Part shown: positions 2 through 57,040 of the stretch, piece after piece | Layout of the letters: every line of letters starts with the position of its first letter | Numbering within the stretch: position 1 is the first letter of the stretch | DNA from: a virus | Length of the DNA: 58,845 nt | Strand: one strand, 5' to 3' | Virus record (IMG/VR): IMGVR_UViG_3300009503_000037 | Coordinates: 1-58,845 of that record | The notes under the pieces: generated by a model | What the model was told of the DNA's origin: nothing | Seen by the model: the letters and a program-made list of their open reading frames with translations, nothing else | Databases searched by the model: none | Translations under genes and position numbers: made by a program

Positions 2-925
2 GTTAGGCTTGTTTCCCCAGATAGAATGATTCATTTTCGAAGACCATCAGTAAAGAATTTCCCCTATGGGGAATCAATCTTTGAGTCGGTTCAATTCGCT
101 TGTAGATTACTAATTGCAATGGAAACAGCTACCACCGTTCAAAGATTGTCTAGGGCGGTTGAAAAGCGAGTCGTCTCTGTTGAAATTGGAGTTCCTCGTG
201 AGTATAGAAATCTAATCGAAGGCATCAAAGAATCTTTTAGAAAAAAGAAAGTTAGTATCGATTCTTTTGGAAGCCTTGATACAATTCCTAGTATGATAAC
301 TACATTCGAAGATATCTATCTTCCTATGAAAGATGGAAGAAAATTCGTAGAACTGGATACCGGAACTGCTGGAAATGTTGATATTCGATCTAGAACTGAT
401 GAGTTAAAATTTATTAGAGATTCTATCGTTGCTGGTCTTTGTGTTCCGCCTGTATTTCTAGGTCTAGAAGAAAATGCTGGATCTTGGCAGAATACCCTAA
501 CTGAACAAAATGTCTTATTTACTCGCTCAGTAATTACATACCAAAAATTTCTAAGCAAACAAATTCAAGAATTGCTCTATCGAATTGCTCTTTTAACAAG
601 AGGAGAGGTTGAAGCAGATCGAATCTTTTCTTTATGTTCAATCGTTCTGCCTGTTCCAAAATCTTTGCAATTTGAACGCCAATCTCGCCAGATATCAGAA
701 GTTGCAGGAATGATACAAACCCTAGAAGGCTTAGGTATTCCTAGAAACTTTCTTATTGAGAAATTCTTGCCAAACATTGATCTAAAAGAAGTTGAAAGAT
801 ATAAGACGAGACAAGTTCTTGATGCCGTCGATGACGTTCCTTCTGGACAAGAAACTGGGCTAGGCGGAGGAGAAATGGGTGGAGGAATGGAAGGAGGAGG
901 AATGATTCCTCCTCCTGGTATATAG
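2..925 (+). CDS. Portal protein (T4 gp20-like), 5' truncated by window edge
   Basis: The reading frame is open to the first bases of the window, so the N-terminus lies outside; the ATG at 26 is internal. The visible part matches the C-terminal half of T4-type portal proteins: a helical stretch with conserved Arg (VRLVSPDRMIHF), a PREYRN-like segment, the KDGRKFVELDTGTAGNVD region and the following wing/stem helices (RDSIVAGLCVPPVFLGLEE). Portal proteins form the dodecameric DNA entry/exit ring of the head. The C-terminal ~25 residues are Gly/Met-rich (GGGEMGGGMEGGG) and probably disordered. Placement directly upstream of a prohead protease and capsid gene agrees with the T4 order 20-21-22-23. 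Family assignment is by eye. Confidence 0.85.
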   Translation, partial: VRLVSPDRMIHFRRPSVKNFPYGESIFESVQFACRLLIAMETATTVQRLSRAVEKRVVSVEIGVPREYRNLIEGIKESFRKKKVSIDSFGSLDTIPSMITTFEDIYLPMKDGRKFVELDTGTAGNVDIRSRTDELKFIRDSIVAGLCVPPVFLGLEENAGSWQNTLTEQNVLFTRSVITYQKFLSKQIQELLYRIALLTRGEVEADRIFSLCSIVLPVPKSLQFERQSRQISEVAGMIQTLEGLGIPRNFLIEKFLPNIDLKEVERYKTRQVLDAVDDVPSGQETGLGGGEMGGGMEGGGMIPPPGI

Positions 926-952
926 ATCGAGCTAGGAGCAAACTATAGAGAT

Positions 953-1723
953 ATGAACCAAAAACCATCTTTTGATATAACCAAAGGTGAGTGGGATCCT
1001 AACTTACTATCAGAATATGGGTCATTGATGCAAACTGGAATATATTACGAGTTTCTAGATCCAATTTGGCACCTTTTATATGAGCAAATTCCCCCTAGAG
1101 GGACCCCCTATCCTCCTCCTAGTACTACTATGGATCCCAGTTCCGATGTTGCTGCAGCTGGGGGGTCACCACCGATTGGTCCACCAGATACTATGCCAGA
1201 GCCAAATCTTTACGGTGGTGGCAGCGACACTAGTCCCCTTCCTATGGGAGGAGAAGAAAACGAAGGAGGTTCGATGCCGCCTCCCAATCAAGACCCAATG
1301 ATGATGGGAGGGTCTGAATTTGAAGATCCAGAAGAACAACGAAGAAAATCTCTTTCCTACATGTTTGAACTAAGAAAAATCTATACAAAACTGGTTGAAT
1401 TAGAATCTCTTATTGACACTACCCAATTTGCTCAAATCCGATATCTAAAAAATATGGTCACAGAAGCAATCCAGCTTCTAACCATTGTTTCATTGAACTT
1501 TACGATCTATATAAACAGAATGCCATTAATCATTGCTGAGTTCTATAGATTTATAACCTACATATCTAAGCTTATACTATTCTTCTATCAAAAGAAAGAA
1601 GAAAAAAATAGAGAAGAATCGAAAGAAAACTACCAGAAAAACGAATTAGACAGGATAGAAAACAAAGCATCAGATCCTATCGAATTCAATATTAGTTCTA
1701 CTTTTCCTATGGAGGGAACGTAA
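953..1723 (+). CDS. Hypothetical protein with Pro/Gly-rich linker, head-gene cluster
   Basis: A 256-residue protein between portal and prohead protease, 27 bases after the portal stop and 2 bases before the protease start, so it is probably co-translated with them. Residues ~1-45 look folded (aromatic-rich). Residues ~46-125 are a Pro/Gly/Ser/Met low-complexity linker. Residues ~130-180 form a predicted helix, followed by a hydrophobic segment near 180-215 and a Lys/Glu-rich tail. I do not recognise a family. The position suggests a head accessory role, for example in portal or scaffold assembly, but that is inference from neighbours only. Confidence 0.75.
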   Translation: MNQKPSFDITKGEWDPNLLSEYGSLMQTGIYYEFLDPIWHLLYEQIPPRGTPYPPPSTTMDPSSDVAAAGGSPPIGPPDTMPEPNLYGGGSDTSPLPMGGEENEGGSMPPPNQDPMMMGGSEFEDPEEQRRKSLSYMFELRKIYTKLVELESLIDTTQFAQIRYLKNMVTEAIQLLTIVSLNFTIYINRMPLIIAEFYRFITYISKLILFFYQKKEEKNREESKENYQKNELDRIENKASDPIEFNISSTFPMEGT

Positions 1724-1725
1724 CA

Positions 1726-2385
1726 ATGCTAATTATTGAGTCAGCAATTGCTCAGATGCCAAAAATTGAGTACAAATCAGATAAAGATAATAAAGTTGTC
1801 TTTAAGGCAATCTTACAAACCGCAGATGAGATTAACGCAAACAAAAGGATGTATCCAAGATCCGTTCTAGAGAGGGGTCTTAGAGAATGTAAAAGAGACA
1901 TGCTTAAACGAGGAAAGATGGGAGAACTTGACCATCCCATTCCCACGGGAAATGAGGCGTTTGACGAAGTTCGACAGACAACGGTCCTTCTATCCGAAGC
2001 ATCTCACTTGATCTTAGATTATGAATGGAGAGGAAACCAAGTATGGGGATTAATGGAAACTCTTCCCACCCCCAAAGGAAGAATCTTATCTAGCTTACTT
2101 AGGGCTAAAACGGAAATTGGAACAAGTATGAGAGGATTTGGAGATTTAGAAGATCGAGGAAACTACAAAGTAGTTTTGGATCCGCTAGTTATTATAACGT
2201 ATGATATGGTCCAAAAACCTTCTCATTCAGAAGCCCTAGTAAAAGAGGTAACATTTGAAAATGTAACTAGAATCCAAGAAAGTGCTTCTGGTCTTGTATG
2301 CAAAGATGGCAAGTGCTATCTTCCAGACTATTTTGATATGTTGGTGAGAAAAGGCATTATTCGGTTTGAAAAGAAGTGGATCTAA
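1726..2385 (+). CDS. Prohead core protease (T4 gp21-like serine protease)
   Basis: Processes scaffold and capsid proteins during head maturation in T4-like phages. The 219-residue protein shows the family's two landmark motifs: GELDHP with the presumed catalytic His at residue 70, and IGTSMRG with the presumed nucleophile Ser at 134. The early segment EINANKRMYPRSVLERGL is also characteristic. Length matches the usual 200-220 residues. The ATG at 1726 is preceded by a GGAGG-containing sequence that lies in the end of the previous gene. Its position between the portal and the major capsid gene supports the call. Cleavage-site motifs in the capsid N-terminus were not identified with certainty. 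Confidence 0.88.
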   Translation: MLIIESAIAQMPKIEYKSDKDNKVVFKAILQTADEINANKRMYPRSVLERGLRECKRDMLKRGKMGELDHPIPTGNEAFDEVRQTTVLLSEASHLILDYEWRGNQVWGLMETLPTPKGRILSSLLRAKTEIGTSMRGFGDLEDRGNYKVVLDPLVIITYDMVQKPSHSEALVKEVTFENVTRIQESASGLVCKDGKCYLPDYFDMLVRKGIIRFEKKWI

Positions 2386-2450
2386 TCTTTTTGAGAAATA
2401 GATTAGAACTATGATAGAAAGTTCAGAACTTTTTCGAGGGACAGCCAAAA

Positions 2451-2771
2451 ATGAAAATTGAAACTGACTTTCATGACAAAAGATTTGAACAAATCTTAAA
2501 TAAGCAGAATTTTTTCGTTCTTTTTGGATCGAAGTTGCTAAGTTTCTTTAAAGACCATCCAAAAGGACAAAAAGAACTTCAGGCCCTAATAACGAATTTG
2601 GATTCTGAACTGGAAGCTCTAAGAAAAAGAGTCAAGAAAGTAGATAAGATGATTTCAGATGCAAATAATCTTTCAAAAAAGTTTCAGGAAACGGCTATAC
2701 AAGAAAGAGAAAAGAATCAATCTATAAGAGATTCTTTACTGAAACAAATTCAACAATTCTCAAAAGAATAA
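2451..2771 (+). CDS. Coiled-coil protein, scaffold-like
   Basis: A 106-residue, Lys/Glu/Gln-rich protein with a long predicted coiled coil from ~residue 45 onward (heptad-like ELEALRKRVKKVDKM...). A GAGGGA ribosome binding site sits 9-10 bases before ATG 2451. It lies between the prohead protease and the capsid gene, where T4-like phages encode internal scaffold or core proteins. No sequence motif proves scaffold function; composition and position are the only evidence. Confidence 0.7.
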   Translation: MKIETDFHDKRFEQILNKQNFFVLFGSKLLSFFKDHPKGQKELQALITNLDSELEALRKRVKKVDKMISDANNLSKKFQETAIQEREKNQSIRDSLLKQIQQFSKE

Positions 2772-2784
2772 GGAAATATGTGAA

Positions 2785-3237
2785 ATGAAGATAGAAATAA
2801 CACCTATTCCAAGCGGAGAGAATAAGGAAGATCTTTCTGGAAAAATTTCAAGAGATCTTCTAGAATATGTTGCTTCTTTCTTAGATTCAGAGTATAGCAA
2901 TAAGAAGAAAACTCTAATCAAAGAAAGAAGAAATCTAAAAGAAAAACTAAAACAACTAGCAGAAGCTAGAAAAACTCTAGACAAAGCTAGGGAAGATTTA
3001 GATCGAGAGAGAAAGATAAAAGATATCCTATATAGAATTTCCGAAGCAGGCTCTTTCGGATTAGTTTTTAACGAAGATTTCTTAGCAATGAGCAAGAATT
3101 TTCTAAAGAATTTAGACTCGCTAAGTAATATAGAATTATCGAATTACTATGAGGCATTCTTAAAGAAAAACTTTGGAGTTCCTGGTCTTTCCAATAAAGA
3201 AAAACATAAAGACTGGAAAGACTTATACTCAAAATAA
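2785..3237 (+). CDS. Coiled-coil protein, probable prohead scaffold
   Basis: A 150-residue charged protein immediately upstream of the major capsid gene, the slot occupied by the scaffold (gp22) in T4. Residues ~40-80 are a strong Lys/Glu/Leu coiled coil (LKEKLKQLAEARKTLDKARE), followed by a helical C-terminal half. A TAAGGAAA ribosome binding site precedes ATG 2785. It is shorter than T4 gp22 (~269 residues), so the scaffold may be split between this and the preceding coiled-coil gene. Assignment rests on composition and synteny. Confidence 0.7.
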   Translation: MKIEITPIPSGENKEDLSGKISRDLLEYVASFLDSEYSNKKKTLIKERRNLKEKLKQLAEARKTLDKAREDLDRERKIKDILYRISEAGSFGLVFNEDFLAMSKNFLKNLDSLSNIELSNYYEAFLKKNFGVPGLSNKEKHKDWKDLYSK

Positions 3238-3273
3238 GTTAACCACAGTTAAAAAAGGAGGTTAGATTATAAA

Positions 3274-4728
3274 ATGAAAGAGCTACTTATTGAAAGCGCA
3301 AAGTTCACCAAGAAGATGTCGGGCATTGATCCTACTAAGCCCGGCAATTTTAAGAGGGTAATCTTGGATGACAGGGCCTTCGCAAGCTATGTAAAATCCC
3401 TGTCGGAAGGTCTTAACAAGAATGATGCTAAGGCCTTCACCTTGCTGGCGGAGAACACTCGTCAGAACTTGTTAGAGAACTCTATGTTCCAGATTAATCC
3501 TTACGAAGTTCTTACTTTGCCTATTCTTCGAGTTTTCTACCCTAAGCTAGTGGCCAAGGAGGCAGTAACCGTTTCGCCTATTGATAAGCCTGAAGCCATC
3601 AAAACATTCATTACCGCTACCTTTAGTCGACATGGGGAAACTATAGAGTACGGGGCGCCCGCAATGCCCTCTCCTGCCAGAGTCGGTATCTCTGGCGGAC
3701 CGGCAGTTGGAACCCCTGTGGCTGCTACAATGAACGTTCCATCAACTACAGACGTTCTTGCTATCCTGACTCTAACAGACGCTGATGCGCATCTCGAAAG
3801 AGACTTCGTTATCAGTGGCGTATCTGATGGGACAACCTGGGTTGATACAAATATTATTCCTGATGTTGAGGGTCGCTTCTCCCAGGCAGTTACAATTGGA
3901 ACTAGTTCCGACGTTCTGGTTGGAGCCGTGAACTACCTGAAAGGAACCGTGAGCATTTCTTCGACTACCGGGGTTGTTACAAGTGTTCGTTACTCAGTAA
4001 CTTGCTCCCTAGAGGAAAACAAGGTTAACCCCAAAACCAAACTCTACGCAGATAAGGTCAGGCTCTATGCCAAAGACCGTCAGATCTCCACTGAATGGTC
4101 GATCAACTTGGAGCAGGACTTAAGGGCCCTCTTGGATCTTTCTGTCCAGGCTGAGCTGGTTAACTTGTTAGGTCAGCAGATTGCTCTTGATATTGATAGA
4201 GAGATAATTGATAGCCTTTCAACTGCCAACTCTATGCTAAATCCATCAAGCCATACTGATAGCTTCTCAAAAACTCCTCCTACGGGATATGCTTGGGGTC
4301 AGAAGTATTGGTTTGAAAACATTCTTCCCAAGTTAAATGCTCTGTCCGCTCAGGTCTACAACGACACAAATATAGGAGCGGCTAATGTTATTCTTTGCAA
4401 CCCGTTGGATGCTTCCATCTTTGAGTCCTTGAATGGATTCGCATACACAGGTACCTCTGACAATGATGGTGATGTAGGTTATCGAGCAGCCACCGTAGCA
4501 GGTGGGAAATGGAGAATTTTAACCAGCTCAGTTGTTCCTTCTGGAAAGATGATTCTGGTTTACAAGCCAGTTGAAGAAATGAAGGCAATTTATTTCTATG
4601 CACCATATGTTCCGGCTATTTTGCACCCTTATCCACTAGGACCAAAGCCCAGCCTCACAATCTTGAGCCGTTATGCAACCGCTCTGGTTCGTGTGGCTGG
4701 AATTGCTGCTCTTACCATCACCACTTAG
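3274..4728 (+). CDS. Major capsid protein (T4 gp23-like)
   Basis: A 484-residue protein with an excellent AAGGAGG site. It follows the portal-protease-scaffold genes and is followed by a strong intrinsic terminator, as expected for the most abundant virion protein. The order N-terminal helix, then ENSMFQINPYEVLTLPILR and VFYPKLVAKEAVTVSPID, resembles gp23-type N-arm and E-loop regions. The C-terminal half (GAANVILCNPLDASIFESL, YAPYVPAILHPYPLGPKP) resembles the P-domain and C-terminal strands of T4-type capsids. Codon use is visibly more GC-ending (ctg, ggc, aac) than in neighbouring genes, consistent with very high expression. An insertion of Thr/Val/Asp-rich beta sequence around residues 165-240 may be a surface domain. 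Confidence 0.88.
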   Translation: MKELLIESAKFTKKMSGIDPTKPGNFKRVILDDRAFASYVKSLSEGLNKNDAKAFTLLAENTRQNLLENSMFQINPYEVLTLPILRVFYPKLVAKEAVTVSPIDKPEAIKTFITATFSRHGETIEYGAPAMPSPARVGISGGPAVGTPVAATMNVPSTTDVLAILTLTDADAHLERDFVISGVSDGTTWVDTNIIPDVEGRFSQAVTIGTSSDVLVGAVNYLKGTVSISSTTGVVTSVRYSVTCSLEENKVNPKTKLYADKVRLYAKDRQISTEWSINLEQDLRALLDLSVQAELVNLLGQQIALDIDREIIDSLSTANSMLNPSSHTDSFSKTPPTGYAWGQKYWFENILPKLNALSAQVYNDTNIGAANVILCNPLDASIFESLNGFAYTGTSDNDGDVGYRAATVAGGKWRILTSSVVPSGKMILVYKPVEEMKAIYFYAPYVPAILHPYPLGPKPSLTILSRYATALVRVAGIAALTITT

Positions 4729-4772
4729 TACTAGTAAACATATTTGGTTGATAACTAAGTAGTGTTAGTTAC

Positions 4773-4825
4773 AACCCCGAGTCTTCCCTTTTTGCTAGTA
4801 GGGAAGACTCGGGGTTAATTTTTTT
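4773..4825 (+). terminator. Strong rho-independent terminator after capsid gene
   Basis: A 16-bp perfect inverted repeat (4773-4788 with 4801-4816), 12-base loop and a run of seven T at 4819-4825. It ends the head operon. Confidence 0.93.
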
Positions 4826-4907
4826 GGTCCATTAGAAAGTTTCAAACCCACCCACCAACTAAAATTCATGAACAATATTCCAAAAAATAACAAAAGGAAA
4901 AAGAACG

Positions 4908-5657
4908 ATGGAAAAAGATCTAGAGACCGTAGAATGTAAGATTTGCGGAAAAAGATATACAACTCTTGCTAATCATCTTTTTAGGGCTCACCTAATAACT
5001 TCCGCCCAGTACTTACAGATGTATCCAGATGCTCCCCTGGTTTCCGAAGAATTTAAAAGAAAACAAAGCATATCGCACTTAAAGAAAGATCCGGTTCAAT
5101 CTTCCCAACCTTCTGATTCTCCTAAATCTCTTTCTAACAAAGAACTTATCACAGACGAAACTTTCTTACAAGACCGAAACATTTTTACTAACTCATCCAA
5201 AACAAACATCAGTATTCCCGAAATAGAAATTCTAGAAAAAGATATACAAAGCAAAATAGATGCGTTCTATTTTAGCGGCGAAAATATGGAAACTCAGATT
5301 CGATATGAAAAGCATAAACTCAAAACCCAGTGTGATCCAGGAAAGACGCAACTTTACAACATTCTAAAACAAAACATATATCCGGACCTGGAGCAAGACT
5401 ATCGAATCTTAAAACTAAGTTCGTCAAGAACAGTAGTTTATGATATATGGTTTGATTTTGTATCTAGAATGTATCGGGTAGCCATTATGATTTGTTTTGC
5501 TCCGTGGTCCAATCATTATAGGAACCCAGTTTCTGGTTTAGTCATTAACGAATTGAGTAAAGACGCATGGCGAGTTTACCAAATAGAAGACGAAGATGAT
5601 TTATATAAGTTCATTCCACAAGCCCTTAGAAACAAGAACTTTCTGAACAAATTTTAA
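4908..5657 (+). CDS. MucR/Ros-type zinc-finger protein of unknown role
   Basis: The N-terminus carries a C2H2-like zinc site: C10, C13, H23 and H28 (CKICGKRY...HLFRAH), followed by helix and SAQYLQMYPDAPL. This is the arrangement of MucR/Ros transcriptional regulators and of phage DNA-binding zinc fingers that read 'HL...H'. A low-complexity Ser/Pro/Lys linker (~residues 55-85) leads to an unrecognised 150-residue C-terminal domain rich in Tyr, Arg and Asp. An AAAGGAAAAAG site precedes ATG 4908. It starts a new transcription unit after the capsid terminator. It could be a late-gene regulator or a virion-associated DNA-binding protein; only the finger is clear. Confidence 0.75.
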   Translation: MEKDLETVECKICGKRYTTLANHLFRAHLITSAQYLQMYPDAPLVSEEFKRKQSISHLKKDPVQSSQPSDSPKSLSNKELITDETFLQDRNIFTNSSKTNISIPEIEILEKDIQSKIDAFYFSGENMETQIRYEKHKLKTQCDPGKTQLYNILKQNIYPDLEQDYRILKLSSSRTVVYDIWFDFVSRMYRVAIMICFAPWSNHYRNPVSGLVINELSKDAWRVYQIEDEDDLYKFIPQALRNKNFLNKF

Positions 5658-5747
5658 GATCTAGTCTTTTCATGGTTTTAGCAATTAATTTGCGTAACAA
5701 AACAATTCTCTTTCCGAATTGTGATGATATATCTGGAGGGGTTATAG

Positions 5748-8700
5748 ATGGCAATTCCCACTCTTTACCAAGAACGAGCGGTTGATCCATTTGCCTCTTA
5801 CCATTCCAACGTAGTTAACCAACTAGTCCGGGTTGTCACAAAAGGAAAAGACTGTATCCTTCAACCTAGAGCCCTAGATGTCATTCCACATACAACAAAC
5901 CCAGAAAGCAAAGTCATAGTTACAAGTGGATTTTGTATTAAAGATAACGTCTTAATCTGGATTAAACAAGATTATGAAGTCGATTTTAATAACGTCGATT
6001 TCTATCCAGTTGGCGGAAACTTCAATAAAGTTGGATACTATTTTGTTTGTCTCGATTACACCTACCAAAAAGCAAGACCAGCTCCGCAAGCCAGAATTAC
6101 AGTTCTAGATCCCAATCAGCATAATCTTCTAAACTCTATGATGTTCTTAAAGGCAGCCTATGTTATTTTCGATGGAACCAGTATGGTAATTTCCAGTCTC
6201 CATGATTGGTATCCTAGTAACCCAACTATAAAAAGGGAATTTGCTCCATATTACTTTAGCGCTGAGCCCTACTTACCCGAATTTGACCAAGTTAGAGACG
6301 AAGCCCGACTGGTCTATGTTATGTCTTCGAAAACTATCTGGTATGGTGGCCCAGATGGATGGCTCCCATTTGACCCGGCAAAAATACCCCTAGACACCAG
6401 CCATTGCTCTCTTAACGACTTAGTTTACATTGGGGCTGAAGGAAAGGCCTATCCTGCCATAGCTACAGAACCAGAAACTTGTGCCTTAGCAGTTGCTATC
6501 TCAATTGGAGATCTTCCGGTAGGCATTGGTCAAATTTTGGGAAAAGTCTCAGGCATCAAACTAGAAACTGGAGTTGAATGCAACGCGGGAGATTCGCTTT
6601 TCTTATCTAGCACCCAACCAGGCCGAGTCACACCTAATGCTCCAGCCGAGATTGCCCAATATGTAGGAGAAGCCCTCACAGATTCTACGTCAAGTCAAGA
6701 CGGAACGATTACAATAATCTTTAATCCAGACCCAAAGAACCCAATAGATTACTTGCGTGGATACTATGCAGATAAAGATATCGATACTCTATTTAAAGAT
6801 ATGTACGATAACCCTACAAGACTCCACGATGGTCTTAAGAAATTGCCATTTACCATCCAAAACCATCTAACTACTATTCGACAATTTTCTGGAATGGCCG
6901 ATGCCTATGACGCAAGTCCGGATTATACGAGCACCAATTACATTGATATTGGAGATTCTCTTACGATTGCCATTTCAAAACTTGACCAAAAACTAGGCAC
7001 CTTAGATTCTGTCTTAGATAACTTAGAGGCCATTCGTCAATTTGTAGGAATGGATGACCTCTTTGATAGCACCCCAGATTATACAAGCAACAATTATATT
7101 CTTGATGGTGATTCTCTAGAAACTGCAATCTCCAAGCTTGATTCTGCAATTGGAAGAGGGTTCAGATCTATGCTTGCCTTCACAGGCATGGATGACTTAG
7201 ATGATGAAACCACCGATTACTGTAGCAATCATTACATTGATGATGGTGATCCTCTAGAGACTGCCATCTGTAAACTCGACCAATGGCTCTATACCTTAAC
7301 ACACCAAACATCGCCATACTTCACCCTCTCCGCACCCTCTACGATTGATATAAGAAGACCTAGTGGCCAATCTGGAACCGCGTCTCTTTCCTTAACGGTC
7401 ACTCCAGTTAATGGTTTTGCTGGTCTTATCCAACTAAGTATCATAAAAAGTGATGGGAGTGCAGAAAATCGTTTCTCACTCACGCCCACAACCATATCTA
7501 TTACCTCGGGGGTAACAAACCCGGTAACCCAGACCTTGGCAATCTCTTGTTCATCTGGAATTCCAGATGGAAGCTATACGATAAAAATCAAGGGGACTAG
7601 TGGATCTTTACAATCGGCCACTGGAGATATAACAGCAGTGGTTTCTACTCAGGCACAAGTTCCAGACCATCCAGAATTTCTTCTAACTTGTTCTCCAACC
7701 TTTATAGATGCGGTGGTTGGAAATCAGATAACATCTTCTGTTTCTTTAACCTTAACCAATACAAGAGCCAATGGTTGGAGCGGAACTGTTAATCTTCAAT
7801 TTCTTAGCGAGTTTTCTGGGGCCACAGCAGTCATTAATCCTGGGAGTATTTATTTTTCCGGAACAAGTATGACAATCTCCGCATCCCTTTCCCACACCCC
7901 CATTAATATTGTGGGAACATTTCAAACAACCATAAAAGCATCAACCTTCATTAATGGGACAGAACATTCTGCTAGCACCACATTTTCTATTAGAGTGGCT
8001 TCGGCTCCATCTCAACCAAAAGATATTCTCTTTACCGCTTCTCCGACATCATTAAGTTTAGTTCAGAACTCTACAAGAACAATCCTGCTAAGCATCGCAC
8101 CAGTAAATGGATTCACAGGAACGGTTAATTTAGCAATATCCACCCCACCCAACGCCGCATATGCCTCTGCGCAGCTTAGTTCTACTTTCGTTGTTATTGA
8201 TAGTACGAATGTCGAACAGGTCCAGGTAACGGTCACCGCAAGCAATAACGTAGGTTCAACCTCGATGACCCTAACCGCTAGCGCAACGGGCATTACAAAC
8301 AAAACTGTGACTATTCCCATAGAAGTTAAGTCATCGGTTCCATCTGACTTCACGCTTTCTTGTAGCCCTTCGGCAGTAACCGTTGAGAGAGGAAGCCAAC
8401 AAACATATTCTTACGTATATATAACTCCCAGCATATCTGGCTTTACTGGAATTGTTACCTTAGTAGCAACTTGTCCAGTTTCAGGAGTGACCATAACCCC
8501 AAGTCCAAGTTCGGTATCTTTAAATGGAACTGCGATTCAAACCGCATCTCTTATAATTCAGGTAGCAAATTCTGTCACGCCTCAAACAACCCAAATTACC
8601 GTTACGGGAACGAGCGGCCAGATATCTAGAACCGCAACCTTAACCCTAACCATCCAAGACACAGCGAGTGGGTTTAGCATTAGCGCATCGCCATCTTCAT

Positions 8701-9692
8701 TAAGTATCCCACAAGGACAAAGTTCCACAACCACCATTTACGTAAGCAAATATGGAACATTTAATAAGTCTGTAACCGTCTCTTGCTTAAATCCACCCAG
8801 TAATGTAACCATTAACAGTATCACGATTCCCTACACATCACCAAGTGGTCAGATTACCATCTCAGTAGGTAGCTCAGCAGCAGTTGGGACTTACTCCTTG
8901 ACCTTTAGGGGAACAAGCGAAGGAATTACCTCGGATTGCTCTGTCACACTACAGGTGACAGCCGCGGCAGTCTCAAATTTCTCCCTGTCAGTATCTCCAA
9001 CGAACGCTCAGATCTATGAAACTCAGTACTATGATTATACAGTAACGTTAACGTCGGTAGGCTCATTTACAGGAACCATTACCTTGTCTTGCGCAGTCGT
9101 TTCTGGAACATTGTACGATACCTCATTTGGTTTCATAGGTGGAAATGGTAGCTCGCAAAATATTGTTATTTTGACAAGCGCCGGATCTTCCAGGAGTGTT
9201 ACTCTTCGAGTCCAGACTGGAACTGGAACAGTAACCAATGAAACCACCGTGTATGCTACTCTTGGAATCACAGCAATCTCAGGCTCAATTACACAACAAC
9301 AAAATGTCCAGATTACAGTTATGCCCCAATCGAAAGTTTCTATCTCTGGTCCTTCCTACTTATATGCAGAACCAGGAACCTCGGTTCCTGTTACCTTAAC
9401 TTTGACACCGGTGAGATACACAGGTTCGGTTACAATTGGGTTGTCGGGAGCGCCAAGCAGTTGGTACTTATCCCAAACAAGCACAAACGTCTCCTCAACC
9501 AAGAACTTCACTACCTATTTAGTCATTCCTTCTGGGACTGCTTACGGAACATATACAATCAAGTTTTCTTGCACGGCAGTAACTAGTGGAATGACCAAGT
9601 ACTCAAATTCTTGCTCAGTTTATGTTCAGCAAAGTACACCTCCTGGAGATTGTGTCGGCGGACCTTGCTTTGGAGATTGCGGTAGTGACTAG
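5748..9692 (+). CDS. Giant tail fibre/adhesin with Ig-like repeats and Cys-rich C-terminus
   Basis: 1314 residues. Residues 1-350 are a unique N-terminal part, likely virion attachment. Residues ~375-520 hold three tandem ~50-residue repeats with the pattern F.GM.D..D...DY.SN.YI.DGDSLETAI.KLD. From ~524 to ~1295 run about seven Ig-like beta modules of ~100 residues (F.L..SPS.L.V..G...T..V.V.P.NGFTG.V.L, ending in TVTGTSG..). Such modules occur in phage fibres and bacterial surface adhesins. The last 17 residues (PPGDCVGGPCFGDCGSD) are Gly/Pro/Cys-rich with Cys at 1302, 1307 and 1311, unlike the rest of the protein. The stop codon overlaps the start of the first radical SAM gene, so fibre and modifying enzyme are translationally coupled. 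GGAGGGG precedes ATG 5748. Confidence 0.88.
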   Translation: MAIPTLYQERAVDPFASYHSNVVNQLVRVVTKGKDCILQPRALDVIPHTTNPESKVIVTSGFCIKDNVLIWIKQDYEVDFNNVDFYPVGGNFNKVGYYFVCLDYTYQKARPAPQARITVLDPNQHNLLNSMMFLKAAYVIFDGTSMVISSLHDWYPSNPTIKREFAPYYFSAEPYLPEFDQVRDEARLVYVMSSKTIWYGGPDGWLPFDPAKIPLDTSHCSLNDLVYIGAEGKAYPAIATEPETCALAVAISIGDLPVGIGQILGKVSGIKLETGVECNAGDSLFLSSTQPGRVTPNAPAEIAQYVGEALTDSTSSQDGTITIIFNPDPKNPIDYLRGYYADKDIDTLFKDMYDNPTRLHDGLKKLPFTIQNHLTTIRQFSGMADAYDASPDYTSTNYIDIGDSLTIAISKLDQKLGTLDSVLDNLEAIRQFVGMDDLFDSTPDYTSNNYILDGDSLETAISKLDSAIGRGFRSMLAFTGMDDLDDETTDYCSNHYIDDGDPLETAICKLDQWLYTLTHQTSPYFTLSAPSTIDIRRPSGQSGTASLSLTVTPVNGFAGLIQLSIIKSDGSAENRFSLTPTTISITSGVTNPVTQTLAISCSSGIPDGSYTIKIKGTSGSLQSATGDITAVVSTQAQVPDHPEFLLTCSPTFIDAVVGNQITSSVSLTLTNTRANGWSGTVNLQFLSEFSGATAVINPGSIYFSGTSMTISASLSHTPINIVGTFQTTIKASTFINGTEHSASTTFSIRVASAPSQPKDILFTASPTSLSLVQNSTRTILLSIAPVNGFTGTVNLAISTPPNAAYASAQLSSTFVVIDSTNVEQVQVTVTASNNVGSTSMTLTASATGITNKTVTIPIEVKSSVPSDFTLSCSPSAVTVERGSQQTYSYVYITPSISGFTGIVTLVATCPVSGVTITPSPSSVSLNGTAIQTASLIIQVANSVTPQTTQITVTGTSGQISRTATLTLTIQDTASGFSISASPSSLSIPQGQSSTTTIYVSKYGTFNKSVTVSCLNPPSNVTINSITIPYTSPSGQITISVGSSAAVGTYSLTFRGTSEGITSDCSVTLQVTAAAVSNFSLSVSPTNAQIYETQYYDYTVTLTSVGSFTGTITLSCAVVSGTLYDTSFGFIGGNGSSQNIVILTSAGSSRSVTLRVQTGTGTVTNETTVYATLGITAISGSITQQQNVQITVMPQSKVSISGPSYLYAEPGTSVPVTLTLTPVRYTGSVTIGLSGAPSSWYLSQTSTNVSSTKNFTTYLVIPSGTAYGTYTIKFSCTAVTSGMTKYSNSCSVYVQQSTPPGDCVGGPCFGDCGSD
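6870..7290 (+). repeat. Three in-frame tandem ~50-residue repeats in the fibre
   Basis: Three consecutive copies share F.GM.D..D..pDY.SN.YI..GDSLe.AI.KLD. Copies begin near 6878, 7036 and 7177. They differ at DNA level, so the duplication is old or diversified. They lie between the N-terminal domain and the Ig-like stack. Confidence 0.8.
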
Positions 9693-10815
9693 TAAAGAAA
9701 CTTACCATATAAGGGCCTCGGTTAGATTCATTGTAACTTATCTATGCAACCAAGCATGTACATATTGTCACGTTCAAAATCTTTGGAATAAAACTCGTCC
9801 AGTTACAAAAAGACTTATGCGTTCAGATATCTTACTTGGATACTTAAAACGAATAAGCTCTGATCTTGATAAAATTTCGAGCATACAAGGACCAATTTTT
9901 TGTAGAGTTTCATTTTATGGCGGAGAGCCTTTCCTTAATTGGAAGGCAATAAAAGAAGCATGTCAAGAAGTCTTTCTTAGAAAACACAATCCTCTTCTAA
10001 CATGGATGCCAGTAATAAATACGAATGGAACTCTTATAAGAAAGGATCATATCGATTTTCTTAAAGAGGTTCCAAATCTAAGGCTCCATGTTAGTTTAGA
10101 TGGATTTCGAAGTCAATTCAATTACAATAGAAAATATAAGAAAGGCGGAAGACTATCTTTTTATGATGTTCTTAGTTCTTTGCGCTTTATGATATCAAGT
10201 GGGTTTCCTCCCACAAGAATACAAATCAATTCGTGTATCTCTTTTAGTACGTTACTAAATTACGAGTTCTTAGATTCTTTCTATTCTGGTCTTAAGGAAT
10301 TGGGAATTAGCGGGGCAGCGATTGAATTCGCAGTTTTAGAAGACGATGGAAAGCAACAAGAAAAAATTATACCAAAAGCTGCTCAAAATTTCCATGAACT
10401 AATACAAAGATGCAAACAATCTAGTATTAGTATTGGGCGTTGGGGAGATCCTCAATTGTACCATGAAACTATTTTTTCAATAGAAATTGACCCAGACGGA
10501 ACGCTTCGATCTCAAAATTCTGTTATACCAATAAAGAATGCTATCATACAACAAAAAGAATCTATTCTCCCCACCTTTACAACAAGCCAAGAACTAGCCA
10601 TAGATCTAGACAAAAACTCCTACGAAAGATGTTCTTCTTGCGAAGCATATACATGGTGTAGAGGTTTTGGAATAGCATTTTCTGATTATCACCTTGGTAA
10701 AGATACTTACAAAGAGAAGAAACAAAATACATTGTGCTCATTTATTATCTGTATGTACAAAGAAAGAAACAAAACCCCTTCTTGGGTAAACAAAGGGAAA
10801 GAAATCACAAAATGA
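9685..10815 (+). CDS. Radical SAM/SPASM enzyme 1, coupled to the fibre gene
   Basis: A 376-residue enzyme beginning at GTG 9685, eight bases inside the fibre gene, with TGGAG at 9671-9675 as binding site; an upstream ATG at 9622 would overlap the fibre far more and lacks support. It carries the [4Fe-4S]/SAM motif CNQACTYC (C21, C25, C28), GGEP at 79-82, and the SAM-binding NTNGT and SLDG segments. The C-terminal SPASM-type Cys set is CSSCEAYTWC (C316, C319, C325) plus later Cys. SPASM radical SAM proteins use auxiliary Fe-S clusters to modify peptides and proteins at Cys, Tyr, Asp and other residues (sactipeptides, ranthipeptides, PqqE, anSME). Placement right after the Cys-tailed fibre makes that tail the best substrate candidate. 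This is inference. Confidence 0.92.
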   Translation: MTSKETYHIRASVRFIVTYLCNQACTYCHVQNLWNKTRPVTKRLMRSDILLGYLKRISSDLDKISSIQGPIFCRVSFYGGEPFLNWKAIKEACQEVFLRKHNPLLTWMPVINTNGTLIRKDHIDFLKEVPNLRLHVSLDGFRSQFNYNRKYKKGGRLSFYDVLSSLRFMISSGFPPTRIQINSCISFSTLLNYEFLDSFYSGLKELGISGAAIEFAVLEDDGKQQEKIIPKAAQNFHELIQRCKQSSISIGRWGDPQLYHETIFSIEIDPDGTLRSQNSVIPIKNAIIQQKESILPTFTTSQELAIDLDKNSYERCSSCEAYTWCRGFGIAFSDYHLGKDTYKEKKQNTLCSFIICMYKERNKTPSWVNKGKEITK

Positions 10816-13127
10816 TTCTTCATACTAACCAACTTCCTAATGATAATGAAACAATCTTAGATCTATGTAAATGCTTTGGTCTAGATCCATCCATATACGA
10901 AACTAAGTTAGATTCTCGACTTATTATAGGAAGTTGGTTATTTGACATCGTTCTCATATGCGAAGCTAACCAAAAAGATAAGATTCAAAACATAGTCGTC
11001 CAGAAACAAAATGAACTAAAGCATTTGGGTCTAACTATCCAAAGGATCCTTTGTAAAGAATGTCCAGAATTAGTTCCCCTCCTTATATCTCCTGCTCACA
11101 AGGCAAAAGTCATTTTATTGACCCCAGAAGTCTTTAGTTTGTTTCTCCGTCATGATCTTCTATTTAATTATGAGTTTCGAAACTGGGTCGCAGTTACCAC
11201 TAAGGGCCGCCGCTTGCTCATAAAAAGCAGTTTAGAAGATTTACAATTTTCAGAGCCAAGACTTCGACATGAACTCTTTCATTGTTATCTAAAAAGTCTT
11301 GGCATAATAAACTTACCATTTTGGTTCGAAGAAGGAGTGTGTGAGTTCTTTTCTTTACAGAATGTTCCTGCACCCAAGTATTGCATATCATATGATATTA
11401 CTCGCTTAATATCAATTCTTAATATAGCCCCAATTAGTTTAGTTTCCAATCCTTCTCAGGTAAAAGATCTATATGGTGGGTATGCATCTTTTATTAGCTT
11501 CCTAATGAAGAAAACAGACTGGCTCAACTTTTTCTATGCTCTTAGCATAGCAAGCAAACAAGCACCATCTTACCAAGAAATAGAAGAGATCTTAAATAAA
11601 GATTTCTCCATTAACTTACCTAACTTATATGAGCAATGGATTCATAGTACGGGGTTGGATCCAATTACTCAGCTCCAATTTACTAACTCATCTGAAAGCA
11701 GGATTGTAAGCATATCAAGCAGCCATAAGGACACAGTTCTTTTATATCAACCAAGAAAATTATCTGTTCTAGCGGATAAGAAAACTATTTCTCTCATAGC
11801 ATCAAACCCAAAAGAACCAAGATACTCCTTAGATCTAGACAGCAGGTATGATTCAAGGGTTCTTTCTAACTTAATTAGAAAGGGATACGTAGGAATTCCC
11901 ATCTCACAACTAGAAGACAACTCTCCTATCATAACAGATTCGCCGAGTACTAATAGTAAGTTTCTTTTTACTAGAAATTTACATAGCTTGCGTTTACTCA
12001 TTACCAATAGATGTAATATGGCGTGTTCATATTGCTATGAAAAAGAAGAATGTACCACCGGTCAACATATGTCAGAAACTATTATCTGTAAAAGCATTGA
12101 AGATTTCTTCAACATCGTTGCTCGAAATGTTTTAAGATCAGAACCTATAGTAATCAGATTATTTGGGGGAGAACCTTTAATTCGACCCGATTTATGTCTC
12201 CTTGCTATTCGACAAGCAAAAAAGGAAGCAAGCAAATATCAGATTTCAGAAAATGAGCTCGTCTTTAACTTAACAACGAATGGTTTGCTAGACTTCCAAG
12301 AAATAATCGAAGAATGTCTCCCCTATTCTATTTCTATTGGAATTAGTTTAGACGGTCCAAACGAAGATATGAATAGATTTCGAAAACTTAAATCCGGTCG
12401 CCCCACCACAGAAATTATAGATTGTAATTTAGATAACTACATTAGGTACTTAGAGAAACTAGATGCTAAAACAAGGCAAAAAATAACAACCTCTATCTGC
12501 TCAACCATTACTACCGCTAACTATTCCTCATTAGAAAACTTATATGAATATGTAATTCAAAAAAGCACCAACATATTTTCTTCCAATCCCAAACAGAATA
12601 TTGGTATTAGCCTACAATTTGCTAACAAAATCTCCTCTGCTGAAGATTTCCTTCCTTCATCTCTATATTACGAAGTCGCAAAGAATGTTGCTAAACTCTA
12701 TACAATATGCTCTAAGAATAGAATTCCTTTGGGTGGGGTAACATTTTTCCCATTTCTAAATATGTTAAAATCATTATATAAGCTAAGAAAACCATCTTAT
12801 TGCGCCTTTACTTCTGGAGCAGAAATTTCAATTGCTCCTACTGGAGAGGTAATCCCGTGCGGAAGCAATTTTTGCTCCTTTGGAAACATCATGAACTCAT
12901 CTCTAGAAGAAATTCTGTTAGGATCAAGTCTATACGAATCTTTACTAACAAGAGATCTTCCTAATGACTGTAAGAAATGTAAGATTCAGATTTTTTGTAA
13001 TGGAGGATGTATTGCAAATAGTTTCTTGCACTCAAAATCTATAAACGAAAAAGATCCTCAATGTAATTTGATAAAAAGCACATTTTCAATGTTAGCTCAA
13101 GAATATATACAAAACGAAGGAGAGTAG
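10812..13127 (+). CDS. Radical SAM/SPASM enzyme 2 fused to HExxH metallopeptidase-like domain
   Basis: 771 residues from ATG 10812, which overlaps the preceding stop as ATGA. Residues ~90-290 contain HELFH (153-157) followed 15-16 residues later by FEEGVCEFF (E173/E174), the HExxH...E layout of Peptidase_MA-type gluzincins. A linker to ~385 leads to a radical SAM core with CNMACSYC (C401, C405, C408), FGGEP, TTNG and SLDGP. The C-terminal SPASM region is anSME-like, with conserved Cys in CAFTSG, EVIPCGSNFC, CKKCKIQIFCNGGC and a last DPQC. The fusion of protease-like and peptide-modifying domains suggests modification plus cleavage of one substrate, as in RiPP maturation. Catalytic competence of the peptidase is not proven. 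The gene ends 4 bases before the next start. Confidence 0.92.
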   Translation: MILHTNQLPNDNETILDLCKCFGLDPSIYETKLDSRLIIGSWLFDIVLICEANQKDKIQNIVVQKQNELKHLGLTIQRILCKECPELVPLLISPAHKAKVILLTPEVFSLFLRHDLLFNYEFRNWVAVTTKGRRLLIKSSLEDLQFSEPRLRHELFHCYLKSLGIINLPFWFEEGVCEFFSLQNVPAPKYCISYDITRLISILNIAPISLVSNPSQVKDLYGGYASFISFLMKKTDWLNFFYALSIASKQAPSYQEIEEILNKDFSINLPNLYEQWIHSTGLDPITQLQFTNSSESRIVSISSSHKDTVLLYQPRKLSVLADKKTISLIASNPKEPRYSLDLDSRYDSRVLSNLIRKGYVGIPISQLEDNSPIITDSPSTNSKFLFTRNLHSLRLLITNRCNMACSYCYEKEECTTGQHMSETIICKSIEDFFNIVARNVLRSEPIVIRLFGGEPLIRPDLCLLAIRQAKKEASKYQISENELVFNLTTNGLLDFQEIIEECLPYSISIGISLDGPNEDMNRFRKLKSGRPTTEIIDCNLDNYIRYLEKLDAKTRQKITTSICSTITTANYSSLENLYEYVIQKSTNIFSSNPKQNIGISLQFANKISSAEDFLPSSLYYEVAKNVAKLYTICSKNRIPLGGVTFFPFLNMLKSLYKLRKPSYCAFTSGAEISIAPTGEVIPCGSNFCSFGNIMNSSLEEILLGSSLYESLLTRDLPNDCKKCKIQIFCNGGCIANSFLHSKSINEKDPQCNLIKSTFSMLAQEYIQNEGE

Positions 13128-13131
13128 AAAA

Positions 13132-14112
13132 GTGGAAAAAGAAACAATCTCAACTGAGTGGTCAGATATCTTAAAGAACGAACTTCTTCCTAGTACCACA
13201 AGGAATTCTCTAACGAAACTAGTCGAATCCTTAGCAGAATCCCAGGTTTCCGATACGGTATTCAATCGAATAACAACAAGGTCATTTGTTGAGAAGAAAT
13301 TCGAACTCAAAGTCTTTACTCCAGATAAATTAGAAGAAGTTGCTCAGGGAATGGATGAAATCAATAGGGCTAGCAATATATTTGGCCGAAGGGATTCCCA
13401 GTTTACTAGACTTTTACTTACAATTCATCACTCAACACCAGAACGAAACTTAATGCAAATAATCGCCGAAGTTGAGAATAGAAGGATGGCTCTTAGAGAG
13501 GCTAACTTTAAGTTAAAACGACAAGTTTTAGACTTGCTAGAAAAACTACATGAATACGAAGTCCTCTCAAAACAAGAAGTTTCCGACCCAGATGAAATTG
13601 TGAGAAAGCAAATTCAGCTGGCAAAACTAAAAGTTAGTATAGAAGAAATTGAATCTGGAATCACCGACTCCAGAATCTATATAGAAGGAGCATTAAAAGA
13701 GGTTTACATCTTTCAGAAAGCATACAATGAAATTTGCGAAACATATGGTTTAGAGAATTGGGATGAATCTAAATTTGAAGAAAAAGAAGATGAGTACCAT
13801 ATTAAACGAGCGATTGCTCAAAGCATTAGAGACGTAAGGCAATTTAATACTATTTCTTGTGGTAATCAAGACTTCTTGCAAATGCTGGGAATAGACCCAA
13901 TGTGTGTTCTTTTTGATATTAGATCTTATCTAAACGAAAGAGCACGAACCATCCAAAGCAACCCAGAAGATATAACCACAAGTTCAGAACTTAGATTTAT
14001 TGAATCCATGTTTAGGAAATATTCTAAGTGCGTAACTTACGCACTTAAAACTAAAGGCCTTAAATCTAGGCAATATAAAGAGGCAATGTACTTAGAAAAC
14101 AATAAAAACTAG
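13132..14112 (+). CDS. Coiled-coil protein of unknown function
   Basis: 326 residues, GTG start at 13132 with AAGGAGAG at 13117-13124 that overlaps the end of radical SAM enzyme 2, so it is probably in the same transcript. Mostly alpha-helical and highly charged, with a coiled-coil stretch around residues 115-190 (RRMALREANFKLKRQVLDLLEKL...). No signal peptide or catalytic motif. It could be a virion assembly or tail-assembly factor; I do not recognise the family. Confidence 0.8.
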   Translation: MEKETISTEWSDILKNELLPSTTRNSLTKLVESLAESQVSDTVFNRITTRSFVEKKFELKVFTPDKLEEVAQGMDEINRASNIFGRRDSQFTRLLLTIHHSTPERNLMQIIAEVENRRMALREANFKLKRQVLDLLEKLHEYEVLSKQEVSDPDEIVRKQIQLAKLKVSIEEIESGITDSRIYIEGALKEVYIFQKAYNEICETYGLENWDESKFEEKEDEYHIKRAIAQSIRDVRQFNTISCGNQDFLQMLGIDPMCVLFDIRSYLNERARTIQSNPEDITTSSELRFIESMFRKYSKCVTYALKTKGLKSRQYKEAMYLENNKN

Positions 14113-17682: not shown

Positions 17683-18207
17683 ATGATAACAGTAAGAAAC
17701 TTTTTTCTATTTGCTTGTATAGGAATCTTTACGTATGGTTGTGCCACCACTCCTAAGAAACCAACTATATTCGATATTCCGCCTGTACAAATTGACTCAG
17801 TGCAGCAATATGAAAAGAAGAACGAAAAAGAACTATTCCCAGACCTATCAAATGAAGGAAAGAATATTCTGGAGGGTGCTTCTCCCATCGTCCTTCCCGA
17901 TGGAAGGACTGGGGTTTTCTTCACTGAGGAACAATTGAAATTTATTGTGGAGTTGGCAGAAAATAGAAAATATCTCCAAGAACAAGGCAAAAATCTAACA
18001 CAAAGCTACAACACCTTAGTCGACATACTAATGGCAACACAATTAAAAGTCATCCTCTTACAAAATAACTTAGAAATGATGAGGAGCATCGCAGTTTCCG
18101 AAGCCACAATGAAAGAAGAATATAGAAGCGATGCCCAGTTTGAAAAATTTAGATCTGTTCTAACTAGTATTATCTCTCTTTTGGGCCTAGCAATCCTAGC
18201 CCTTTAG
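17683..18207 (+). CDS. Lipoprotein with C-terminal membrane segment (u-spanin-like)
   Basis: 174 residues, AAAGGAG upstream of ATG 17683. The N-terminus is a lipoprotein signal: basic start, hydrophobic FFLFACIGIF, then TYGC with the acylated Cys at 20 (the -3 residue is Thr, so the lipobox is imperfect). The middle is helical. The last ~18 residues (VLTSIISLLGLAILAL) are a hydrophobic span at the extreme C-terminus. Outer-membrane lipid anchor plus C-terminal inner-membrane helix is the architecture of unimolecular spanins such as T1 gp11, which fuse the two membranes of diderm hosts at lysis. Its last 38 bases overlap the convergent radical SAM gene. Confidence 0.68.
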   Translation: MITVRNFFLFACIGIFTYGCATTPKKPTIFDIPPVQIDSVQQYEKKNEKELFPDLSNEGKNILEGASPIVLPDGRTGVFFTEEQLKFIVELAENRKYLQEQGKNLTQSYNTLVDILMATQLKVILLQNNLEMMRSIAVSEATMKEEYRSDAQFEKFRSVLTSIISLLGLAILAL

Positions 18208-19258
18208 TAGATAAGTGGTGGATATCTTTTGGTTGTATCGTTTTGTTAGCAAGTAAATCTGAAAACATCATACAAGTCCACAAACAGCCCTTACAGTATA
18301 ATTCTTTATCTTTTCGAAGAGCATCTTTAAATCGATTCATATTTTCCTCATGAATCGAGCCATCCTTATTCAAAATATCGGTAACTTTGAACTTGGTGCT
18401 TTCAATTCCCCTTATTCTAAGACACAATCGAAGAGACCCATCAGAATCTATAACCAAATTGTTAGCATTTTCTTCGATATTGCACATATAGGGTTTTTGG
18501 TTTTCTATACAATCCATCAAAACAACAAGCGACTCGTGAGCAAGAACTTTTAACTCGCCCTTCCTAGCTTCTTTGAGAATGTAAGAAAAAACTGTCCTAG
18601 AGACATTGCTAGGTTTTATAAGAAGTCTTGGATCTAAGGTTTCCGCAAAATCATAATAGTTCGTTTCTCCAAACTCAACCACTGAGATACTAGACCAAAT
18701 CCCAGCTCTAGTTAGATAAGAAACCAATCCAGGAAGGAATGCCAAAGACTTAGCGTCTGACACAACCTCCGCTACAATATCCCTTACTTTTTTGCCACTT
18801 TGATTCATTAGAAACTTTATAGAATGTAAAGCGCTAGATGATTTCTTTGTTCTATCTCCTCCTCTCCTAGAAGACATAAATACAACAGGATCCAAAGAAA
18901 ATGATATTCCATCTATATAATCCAAAGAAGCAAGCAAATCTTTAATCGTTTCAAAAGACGAACCAGACATATTCGACACAATTGTATAGAGGATGTTTTC
19001 TTTATTGCACCTTAAGATCAGATCTTTGAGTTCTCGATACTGAGTAGGCTCACCTCCAAGGAATATGTTATAAGATTCTGGGTTATTAGATTTTATCCTA
19101 CAGATTGAATCAATAAGATAACTAAAATCTATATCTGTCTTTAGAAGAGTTTTAACTGAGTATGGATCATTGGCATACGTTTTGCTTATCCTACAGTAGG
19201 AACATTTAAGATTGCATCTTCTTGTTAGTAGCCAAGTTGCGATATGAATCTGATTCAT
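18170..19258 (-). CDS. Radical SAM enzyme 3 (SPASM-like C-terminus)
   Basis: 362 residues; AAGGAGG precedes ATG 19258. CNLKCSYC (C15, C19, C22), FLGGEPT and the SLDP segment define the radical SAM core. The C-terminus has MCNIEENANN, RLCLRIRG and YCKGCLWTC, resembling SPASM/twitch auxiliary-cluster ligands. It runs opposite to surrounding + strand genes, 40 bases downstream of a thymidylate-synthase-family gene, and overlaps the end of the convergent lipoprotein gene by 38 bases. It is clearly diverged from the two enzymes at 9.7-13.1 kb. The substrate is unknown: candidates are a peptide, or a pyrimidine product linked to its neighbour. Confidence 0.88.
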   Translation of the reverse strand: MNQIHIATWLLTRRCNLKCSYCRISKTYANDPYSVKTLLKTDIDFSYLIDSICRIKSNNPESYNIFLGGEPTQYRELKDLILRCNKENILYTIVSNMSGSSFETIKDLLASLDYIDGISFSLDPVVFMSSRRGGDRTKKSSSALHSIKFLMNQSGKKVRDIVAEVVSDAKSLAFLPGLVSYLTRAGIWSSISVVEFGETNYYDFAETLDPRLLIKPSNVSRTVFSYILKEARKGELKVLAHESLVVLMDCIENQKPYMCNIEENANNLVIDSDGSLRLCLRIRGIESTKFKVTDILNKDGSIHEENMNRFKDALRKDKELYCKGCLWTCMMFSDLLANKTIQPKDIHHLSTKGLGLLGPKER

Positions 19259-19298: not shown

Positions 19299-20105
19299 CT
19301 ACTTTTTGTTCAATTTTAGACGAACAGCCTCTATTTGGAAATCATAGCAATGAAGACCTTTAGAAACAAAGCTCAGCGAACCAGGATTAACCTCAATTTC
19401 AGAGCTAGTTAGTTCATTCGCCACATATTCAAGCAATAAAGTCAATCCTCCAATGTTTTCAGGAAAGCCACTATAAAGATCCCAACTTCTAAAATAACAA
19501 ACCATTGAAATAGAATAAGACTTTTGGTTCTGTTCTATAATCTTTAAATCAATTAACCTTAAGCATGGTGACGTTCTCCTTTCAGTTTCATCAGAATAAG
19601 GTATATCATATGCTAAGTTTGTTTCTGGATATCCCACCTGAATTGTACAATGATTATTACCAAACCCCTGCTTCTTAAAGTGCTCAATGCACCATTGGAG
19701 TTGGTTTGGAACTGTAATCTCAAGATCATAAAGATCTTTTCCTTCGATTCGTATCTGGGGAATCTTGTACTTCCCACCAACGATCCACGTAGAATAACGA
19801 TAGTGCTCATTTGGAGACAATTTCCCGTTCATAAGGTAATTTACGAAATATTCTTCTATAGCGGAATCCGTTGTAGGAGCAGGAACCCCAGGAGGAGTAT
19901 ACACCGCTAAAGGTCTTTCAGATGGACTCATTATCGTTCCAGCTACGAAATCGAATTCCAACCGACTAGATCCTGCATACGAACCAGACGTCACTTTGTA
20001 TCTTCGTCCCTTGTCCCATAACTGAGCCAAGAGCTCAAACCAAGTATCATTAATTGTTCTACCCGTTACGAAAACCGGTTGGAATTTTTCTAGAACTGGA
20101 TCCAT
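19299..20105 (-). CDS. Thymidylate synthase family enzyme
   Basis: 268 residues, AAGGAGG before ATG 20105. The C-terminal half carries the family signatures: QWCIEHF helix, a presumed catalytic Cys at 181 in RTSPCLRLID, FRSWDLYSGFPENIGGL with the phosphate/dUMP region at 205-218, and Asn217 at the position that distinguishes uracil-binding enzymes (Asn) from dCMP hydroxymethylases (Asp). The sequence is closer in feel to short archaeal-type ThyA than to E. coli ThyA. It would make dTMP or, as in some phages, 5-hydroxymethyl-dUMP for modified DNA; the sequence does not decide. It lies divergent from the baseplate genes. Confidence 0.8.
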   Translation of the reverse strand: MDPVLEKFQPVFVTGRTINDTWFELLAQLWDKGRRYKVTSGSYAGSSRLEFDFVAGTIMSPSERPLAVYTPPGVPAPTTDSAIEEYFVNYLMNGKLSPNEHYRYSTWIVGGKYKIPQIRIEGKDLYDLEITVPNQLQWCIEHFKKQGFGNNHCTIQVGYPETNLAYDIPYSDETERRTSPCLRLIDLKIIEQNQKSYSISMVCYFRSWDLYSGFPENIGGLTLLLEYVANELTSSEIEVNPGSLSFVSKGLHCYDFQIEAVRLKLNKK

Positions 20106-26658: not shown

Positions 26659-26672
26659 GAGGACCAGCAAGT

Positions 26673-56928: not shown

Positions 56929-57040
56929 CTTGTAAGTCCTCCTTTGTATCTCGTTGCAATCAGTTATGTGTGAATATATACTAACCTAGGTAAACTATGA
57001 ACATCCATGGGTCTATACCACCTCCTTCTTCTTTCTTCCT

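Follow-up and report, generated by a model that had tools for sequence, protein, structure and literature searches.

Two radical SAM genes overlapping the tail-fibre gene of a T4-like phage: a candidate system for maturation of the fibre tip

The question raised by the locus described here is what two radical S-adenosylmethionine (rSAM) enzymes would do when encoded directly behind, and overlapping, a tail-fibre gene. The locus lies in IMG/VR virus record IMGVR_UViG_3300009503_000037, a 58,845-base record of a T4-like phage with a gp23-type capsid protein, the whole of which is called the window below. The known maturases of the rSAM type act on small peptides and on a few enzymes. We consider it likely, at a probability of roughly 55%, that the two enzymes modify the fibre post-translationally, and that they do so most likely at a cysteine-bearing tail at its C-terminus. 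The features concerned are:

5748-9692 (+): tail-fibre-like protein, 1314 aa; N-terminal base or adaptor domain of ~200 aa, then a repeat-rich body
9639-9689 (+): C-terminal tail PPGDCVGGPCFGDCGSD, the proposed maturation site; read directly
9685-10815 (+): rSAM1, ~376 aa; radical SAM core (PF04055 1.4e-12; phrog_1802 3.6e-18) and partial SPASM-like C-terminal cysteines
9745-9768 (+): CxxxCxxC motif of rSAM1, CNQACTYC; read directly
10812-13127 (+): rSAM2, 771 aa; peptidase-like N-terminal region, radical SAM core (PF04055 6.8e-14) and full SPASM domain (PF13186 2.6e-7)
11268-11336 (+): HELFH...FEEG zinc-peptidase-like motif of rSAM2 (residues 151-183; DA1-like PF12315, E 0.006, below cut-off)
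12012-12035 (+): CxxxCxxC motif of rSAM2, CNMACSYC; read directly and invariant in the alignment
12801-12983 (+): SPASM auxiliary-cluster domain of rSAM2 (PF13186 match)
13132-14112 (+): g13132, 326 aa, no assigned function (phrog_1409 4.9e-8)
3274-4728: gp23-type capsid protein (PF07068 4.8e-32)

An earlier note on this DNA had reported a fibre reading frame with a Gly/Pro/Cys end and start/stop overlaps along the genes behind it, and both were confirmed by coordinates. The GTG start of rSAM1 at 9685 overlaps the end of the fibre gene by 8 bases (the fibre stop ends at 9692) and is preceded, ~11 bases 5', by a GGAG read directly from the sequence. At 10812 the ATG of rSAM2 shares bases with the rSAM1 stop (ATGA), and four bases separate the end of rSAM2 from the GTG that opens the next gene, at 13132. 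Given these overlaps and the four-base gap, the fibre gene, rSAM1, rSAM2 and g13132 form one tight string and are therefore very probably a single transcript with coupled translation.

The fibre itself matched no Pfam domain, and the whole protein gave no match against GenBank phages. Its first ~200 residues, the base domain, are shared by nine of the related phages examined (31-43% identity), and its N-terminal part (first 584 aa) had no direct relatives among the viral contigs searched, a set of 2.9 million. Cysteines of the tail fall at residues 1302, 1307 and 1311, with CFGD and CGSD giving CX2D spacing; 17 further cysteines are dispersed across the first 1297 residues. At least three cysteines in the last 17 residues were found in only 4 of 958 open reading frames (ORFs) of at least 200 aa in the window and the nine related phage records, and the other three of these four resemble two zinc ribbons and one rSAM enzyme. 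The cysteine-rich fibre end is thus more than chance would give. The tail motif CxGGPCxGDC had two matches in the viral set, both in unrelated places, and no second occurrence of the 17-residue sequence as a fibre tail was found in that set.

Both enzymes carry the CxxxCxxC core that the earlier note had described, and the SPASM-type cysteines it had assigned to both are complete in rSAM2 and only partial in rSAM1. Against the pattern Gx4C ... CxxCx5CxxxC ... C, rSAM1 has CxxCxxxxxC and late cysteines, lacks the Gx4C cysteine and gave no Pfam SPASM match. Peptide-maturase models (PapB, CcpM, DynA, SCIFF) head the lists of both enzymes, all far below their curated cut-offs: the best NCBIfam model of rSAM1 was the peptide maturase CcpM (2.3e-21, 76 bits vs a cut-off of 500) and the best named model of rSAM2 was PapB (NF047865; 1.8e-31, 109.6 bits vs a cut-off of 340), which gave 68 bits with rSAM1. 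The nearest PDB sequence to rSAM2 was CteB (5wgg, 8.2e-13), with an anaerobic sulfatase maturase also matched; CteB likewise heads the Foldseek list of fold comparisons, which includes anSME, ChlB, TigE and SuiB. The core of the predicted rSAM2 structure was modelled well, and the N-terminal ~390 residues were too poorly modelled for use. This region, overlooked by the earlier note, holds the motif HELFH-x15-EEG. HExxH...E is the ligand pattern of zinc peptidases, and by this motif the region is predicted to be peptidase-like. No direct relatives of rSAM1 or rSAM2 were found in the viral set.

Support of another kind was obtained from a Cys-dense heptad repeat, (CTCNCNY)n, which ~50 viral contigs contain and which is nearly absent from the prokaryote set (genomes of 85,000 species). 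With a DNA pattern for CTCxCNYxCTC, 40 matching stretches were recovered from viral contigs and no match from the prokaryote set; a second pattern added further viral contigs together with two small contigs in metagenome-assembled genomes that bear the same rSAM genes. The loci are L141-L180, L203-L214 and NC_027997.1 160932-162536, the last being gp140 of phage CP220. In several phages an S74 chaperone (Pfam PF13884) directly follows the repeats, which therefore stand at the distal end of the fibre protein. For 24 of 34 distinct repeat proteins, the distance to an rSAM gene is at most 1.5 kb; the corresponding background, in related phages lacking the repeat, is 66 of 909 ORFs (7.3%). Seven repeat proteins had no rSAM gene in the piece of contig examined, four of them being clipped, at the edge of the piece or with an rSAM gene elsewhere on the contig; the remaining exceptions are L147 and the L205/L206 group, on fragmentary contigs. 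Repeat proteins on contigs with no detected rSAM gene (L147, L205/L206/L208/L211) may represent fragments or users of borrowed enzymes.

By tree and profiles, three rSAM families, termed A, B and C, recur alongside the CTCNCNY repeat; the tree was a quick one and its deep forks are weak. As the profiles were made from the repeat-linked enzymes, they test absence elsewhere and not presence alongside the repeat. At >100 bits, the threshold of membership, no A, B or C enzyme was found in six related phages without Cys-repeat proteins, and the single other match came from G007, a contig carrying its own, different Cys-rich protein. The phrogs listed for repeat proteins with A/B/C enzymes are phrog_26958 and phrog_1802. 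Repeat and enzyme families together apparently constitute an undescribed system, phage-specific by pattern scan. A raw search and the tree had also suggested that the window enzymes belong to A, B or C. That assignment was dropped, since cellular controls score nearly as high: rSAM1 and rSAM2 reach 60.8 and 71.4 bits against the family A and C profiles, and the highest score of 21 cellular rSAM proteins from SPASM-bearing loci is 61 bits with the profiles of the three families. By sequence, the window enzymes would be SPASM peptide-modifier types at a distance from A, B and C similar to that of cellular enzymes.

Genes with the fibre base domain could also be followed through their surroundings. 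A capsid protein search gave 22 contigs, and the fibre base domain was found in 18 contigs altogether, mostly with ordinary structural genes coming next. In three of the 18 it is followed by rSAM genes, and two of these three (G011, IMGVR 3300033146_002768; G013, IMGVR 3300035390_000014) also have Cys-repeat proteins. Behind the base gene come, in order, genes for a 174-aa protein and an rSAM/SPASM enzyme, a small gene, two further rSAM genes and those for two Cys-repeat proteins. The repeat proteins, of type CTCNCNYACTCNCNY, have 18-35 cysteines in 125-245 aa, and most end in an SDKRLKTEI-like sequence, with which the S74 fibre chaperone motif begins. The combination of fibre, rSAM enzyme and Cys-rich protein thus recurs in other phages, which argues against the view that the window holds chance neighbours, an incidental Cys tail with a mobile rSAM cassette inserted behind the fibre. 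The absence of the rSAM1-rSAM2 pair from the nine related phages compared would fit such an insertion; given also the rarity of such tails noted above, we regard it as very improbable.

Further rSAM loci were also seen. Arrays of 7-8 rSAM genes lie near the tail-fibre region at G011 151694-166792 and G019 464-8660 (L063-L064, L067); they belong to families other than A, B and C, include carbamoyltransferase-like and epimerase-like genes and resemble a small-molecule or sugar pathway. At G001 90276-94158 (L074), a tandem rSAM pair (434 aa each) is followed by small WxDxxxxxxxxHxxEL proteins with a few cysteines, a possible third variant.

A cultured case is provided by CP220. Its gp140 (534 aa) has no cysteine in the first 290 residues and 35 thereafter, beginning with six CxCxCNY heptads; the gene stands 2.2 kb from the rSAM gene gp136 (family B) and immediately upstream of a gene whose annotation reads RNA ligase and tail-fibre attachment catalyst. 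The same genome has a family A enzyme in gp023 and a C-like one at 83957-84694 (29% identity, E 8e-26). The 11 rSAM proteins of CP220 and 12 of CPt10 were termed highly unusual in 2010 and ascribed to metabolism, and a 21-bp repeat (CPT_0180), the sole intragenic repeat reported, was not connected with them (PMC2853527). For phage IBB_35, cofactor, activating or methylation roles were suggested for rSAM proteins (PMC3322345), and pelagimyophages differ by rSAM cassettes, mentioned without a function, that lie within the host-recognition cluster (PMC7029224). These views on CP220 and IBB_35 favour a rival explanation, in which the window enzymes serve metabolism, sugar or nucleotide chemistry and the tail is an unrelated disulphide or metal tip; phages do carry many rSAM genes of other kinds, such as the G011 and G019 arrays and QueE-like genes. 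That peptide-maturase models are the best for both window enzymes, that rSAM2 has the full SPASM domain of protein modifiers with CteB as its nearest structure, and that the genes overlap a structural gene in translation all point the other way, and we consider this explanation unlikely.

If the enzymes are peptide maturases, the substrate has to be named. The fibre tail is proposed because of the identity of the fibre, the gene overlap, the presence of the Cys tail and the lack of any second Cys-rich ORF in the neighbourhood; by sequence, rSAM1 and rSAM2 would likely modify this tail. No other Cys-rich ORF adjoins the rSAM genes on the same strand, so there is no small local alternative; no separate Cys-rich peptide of the short precursor type known from ribosomally synthesized and post-translationally modified peptides (RiPPs) was found near the enzymes, and no RiPP recognition element (RRE) model was assigned. 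In the whole window no CTCNCNY-like Cys-dense ORF was found, only the three-Cys fibre tail. The rival here is that the substrate is one of the other fibre cysteines, of which the body holds 17, or a Cys-rich protein beyond the 58.8-kb fragment; distance is no bar, since in CP220 two of the three enzymes are encoded far away from the gene of the repeat protein. In most phages, however, the substrate-like protein adjoins the enzymes, which in the window overlap the fibre gene with no other Cys-rich ORF close by, and we hold this alternative to be a minor though real possibility.

Several further points weigh against modification of the fibre tail. The window is a fragment, and another substrate may therefore lie elsewhere. 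The exact tail and both enzymes are without close relatives in the viral set, the enzymes hardly outscore the best cellular SPASM enzymes on the A/B/C profiles, and no leader or recognition element was identified for the fibre. Disulphide formation or metal binding could be a simple alternative role of the three-Cys tail. G019 has seven rSAM genes in a row after the fibre base, from families other than A, B and C, without a Cys-rich protein. In G007, a Cys-rich protein of 180 aa whose repeat is of another type, CTCDSTCYNFSCSCNTTCYGYQ (56560-57102, L078; six kb after the fibre base), stands ~22 kb from the nearest detected rSAM gene (A-like, 78963). The core proposal of the earlier note, that SPASM enzymes encoded by the phage mature its virion fibre, is strongly and independently supported by other phages (repeat fibres with rSAM sets, and CP220); for this window we infer the substrate.

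Under modification of the fibre tail, the following course may be envisaged. Coupled translation would deliver the fibre, rSAM1 and rSAM2 together, and the enzymes would work on the flexible tail at the C-terminus while the fibre folds or before it does so. SPASM enzymes of this kind abstract a hydrogen from an amino acid and then join the radical to a cysteine sulphur, and thioether rings are therefore the likely product. Such rings would run from a tail Cys sulphur to a nearby side chain, e.g. Cys1307-Asp1310 and Cys1311-Asp1314. PapB accepts Cys-Asp spacings of 0-6 residues (PMC9413430), so the CX2D spacing of CFGD and CGSD is chemically plausible. The peptidase-like region of rSAM2 may bind, hold or trim the fibre. 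The product would be a small, compact and rigid tip at the free end, presumably stable to reduction and proteolysis, and would serve the fibre there.

By analogy between these phages, chemical modification of their own fibre tips is probably a general practice. We further propose, tentatively, that large T4-like phages carry a phage-specific system in which dedicated rSAM enzymes rebuild Cys-rich fibre ends, probably into thioether-stapled tips, with the CTCNCNY repeat and the A/B/C enzymes as the common form and the window as a divergent short-tail form with a peptidase-like region. In the literature searched, no paper was found that connects rSAM genes of phages to fibre proteins or to Cys-repeat proteins, and virion-adhesin maturation, which the earlier note had thought undescribed, was likewise not met with there. 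If true, the proposal would explain the 11-12 rSAM genes of CP220-group Campylobacter phages, previously left as metabolism; as these phages are in culture, the proposal is already open to testing. Further implications are a family of cross-linked binding tips, probably of great stability, and novel enzymes that form such cross-links.

No homologue of g13132, the last gene of the string, was found in the nine related phages compared. A third rSAM gene of the window was tried as part of the maturation system and rejected, as its family is a distinct one, conserved across the phage clade irrespective of Cys proteins:

18170-19258 (-): rSAM3; family conserved in the phage clade (G003, G011, G013, G018, G021)

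It adjoins a thymidylate-synthase-like gene (19299-20105, -) and perhaps takes part in nucleotide or DNA-base chemistry. A weak match to an amino acid:DNA transferase (26640-27506; PF18724, E 0.008, below cut-off) hints at possible DNA hypermodification, and 23348-25648 encodes a protein of 766 aa in which collagen repeats are numerous (PF01391 2.8e-81).

Among known systems, PapB/PapA, of the ranthipeptide type, resembles the window locus in its SPASM rSAM enzyme, which is the best named model of rSAM2, and in the Cys...Asp motifs of the putative substrate. It differs in the score of rSAM2 (109.6 vs 340 bits), in the extra peptidase-like N-terminal region of that enzyme and in the putative substrate, which here is a 1314-aa virion fibre and not a small peptide. 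CteB, the SCIFF maturase (PDB 5wgg, 5why), is a thioether-forming SPASM enzyme and the nearest to rSAM2 by sequence and fold, but its substrate is a short six-Cys peptide and the window has no SCIFF peptide. CP220 is likewise a T4-like phage, and a cultured one, in which a Cys-repeat protein occurs together with A, B and C-like enzymes. The enzyme genes are scattered there, and the published account treats them as metabolic and the repeat as one in the DNA, without pairing the two (PMC2853527). Measured against the CTCNCNY phages with A/B/C enzymes, the window has a single 17-residue end without the heptad and enzymes outside A, B and C by score, but it shares with them a fibre-like protein whose Cys-rich C-terminal part stands beside SPASM rSAM genes and, with G011 and G013, the same fibre-base gene upstream.

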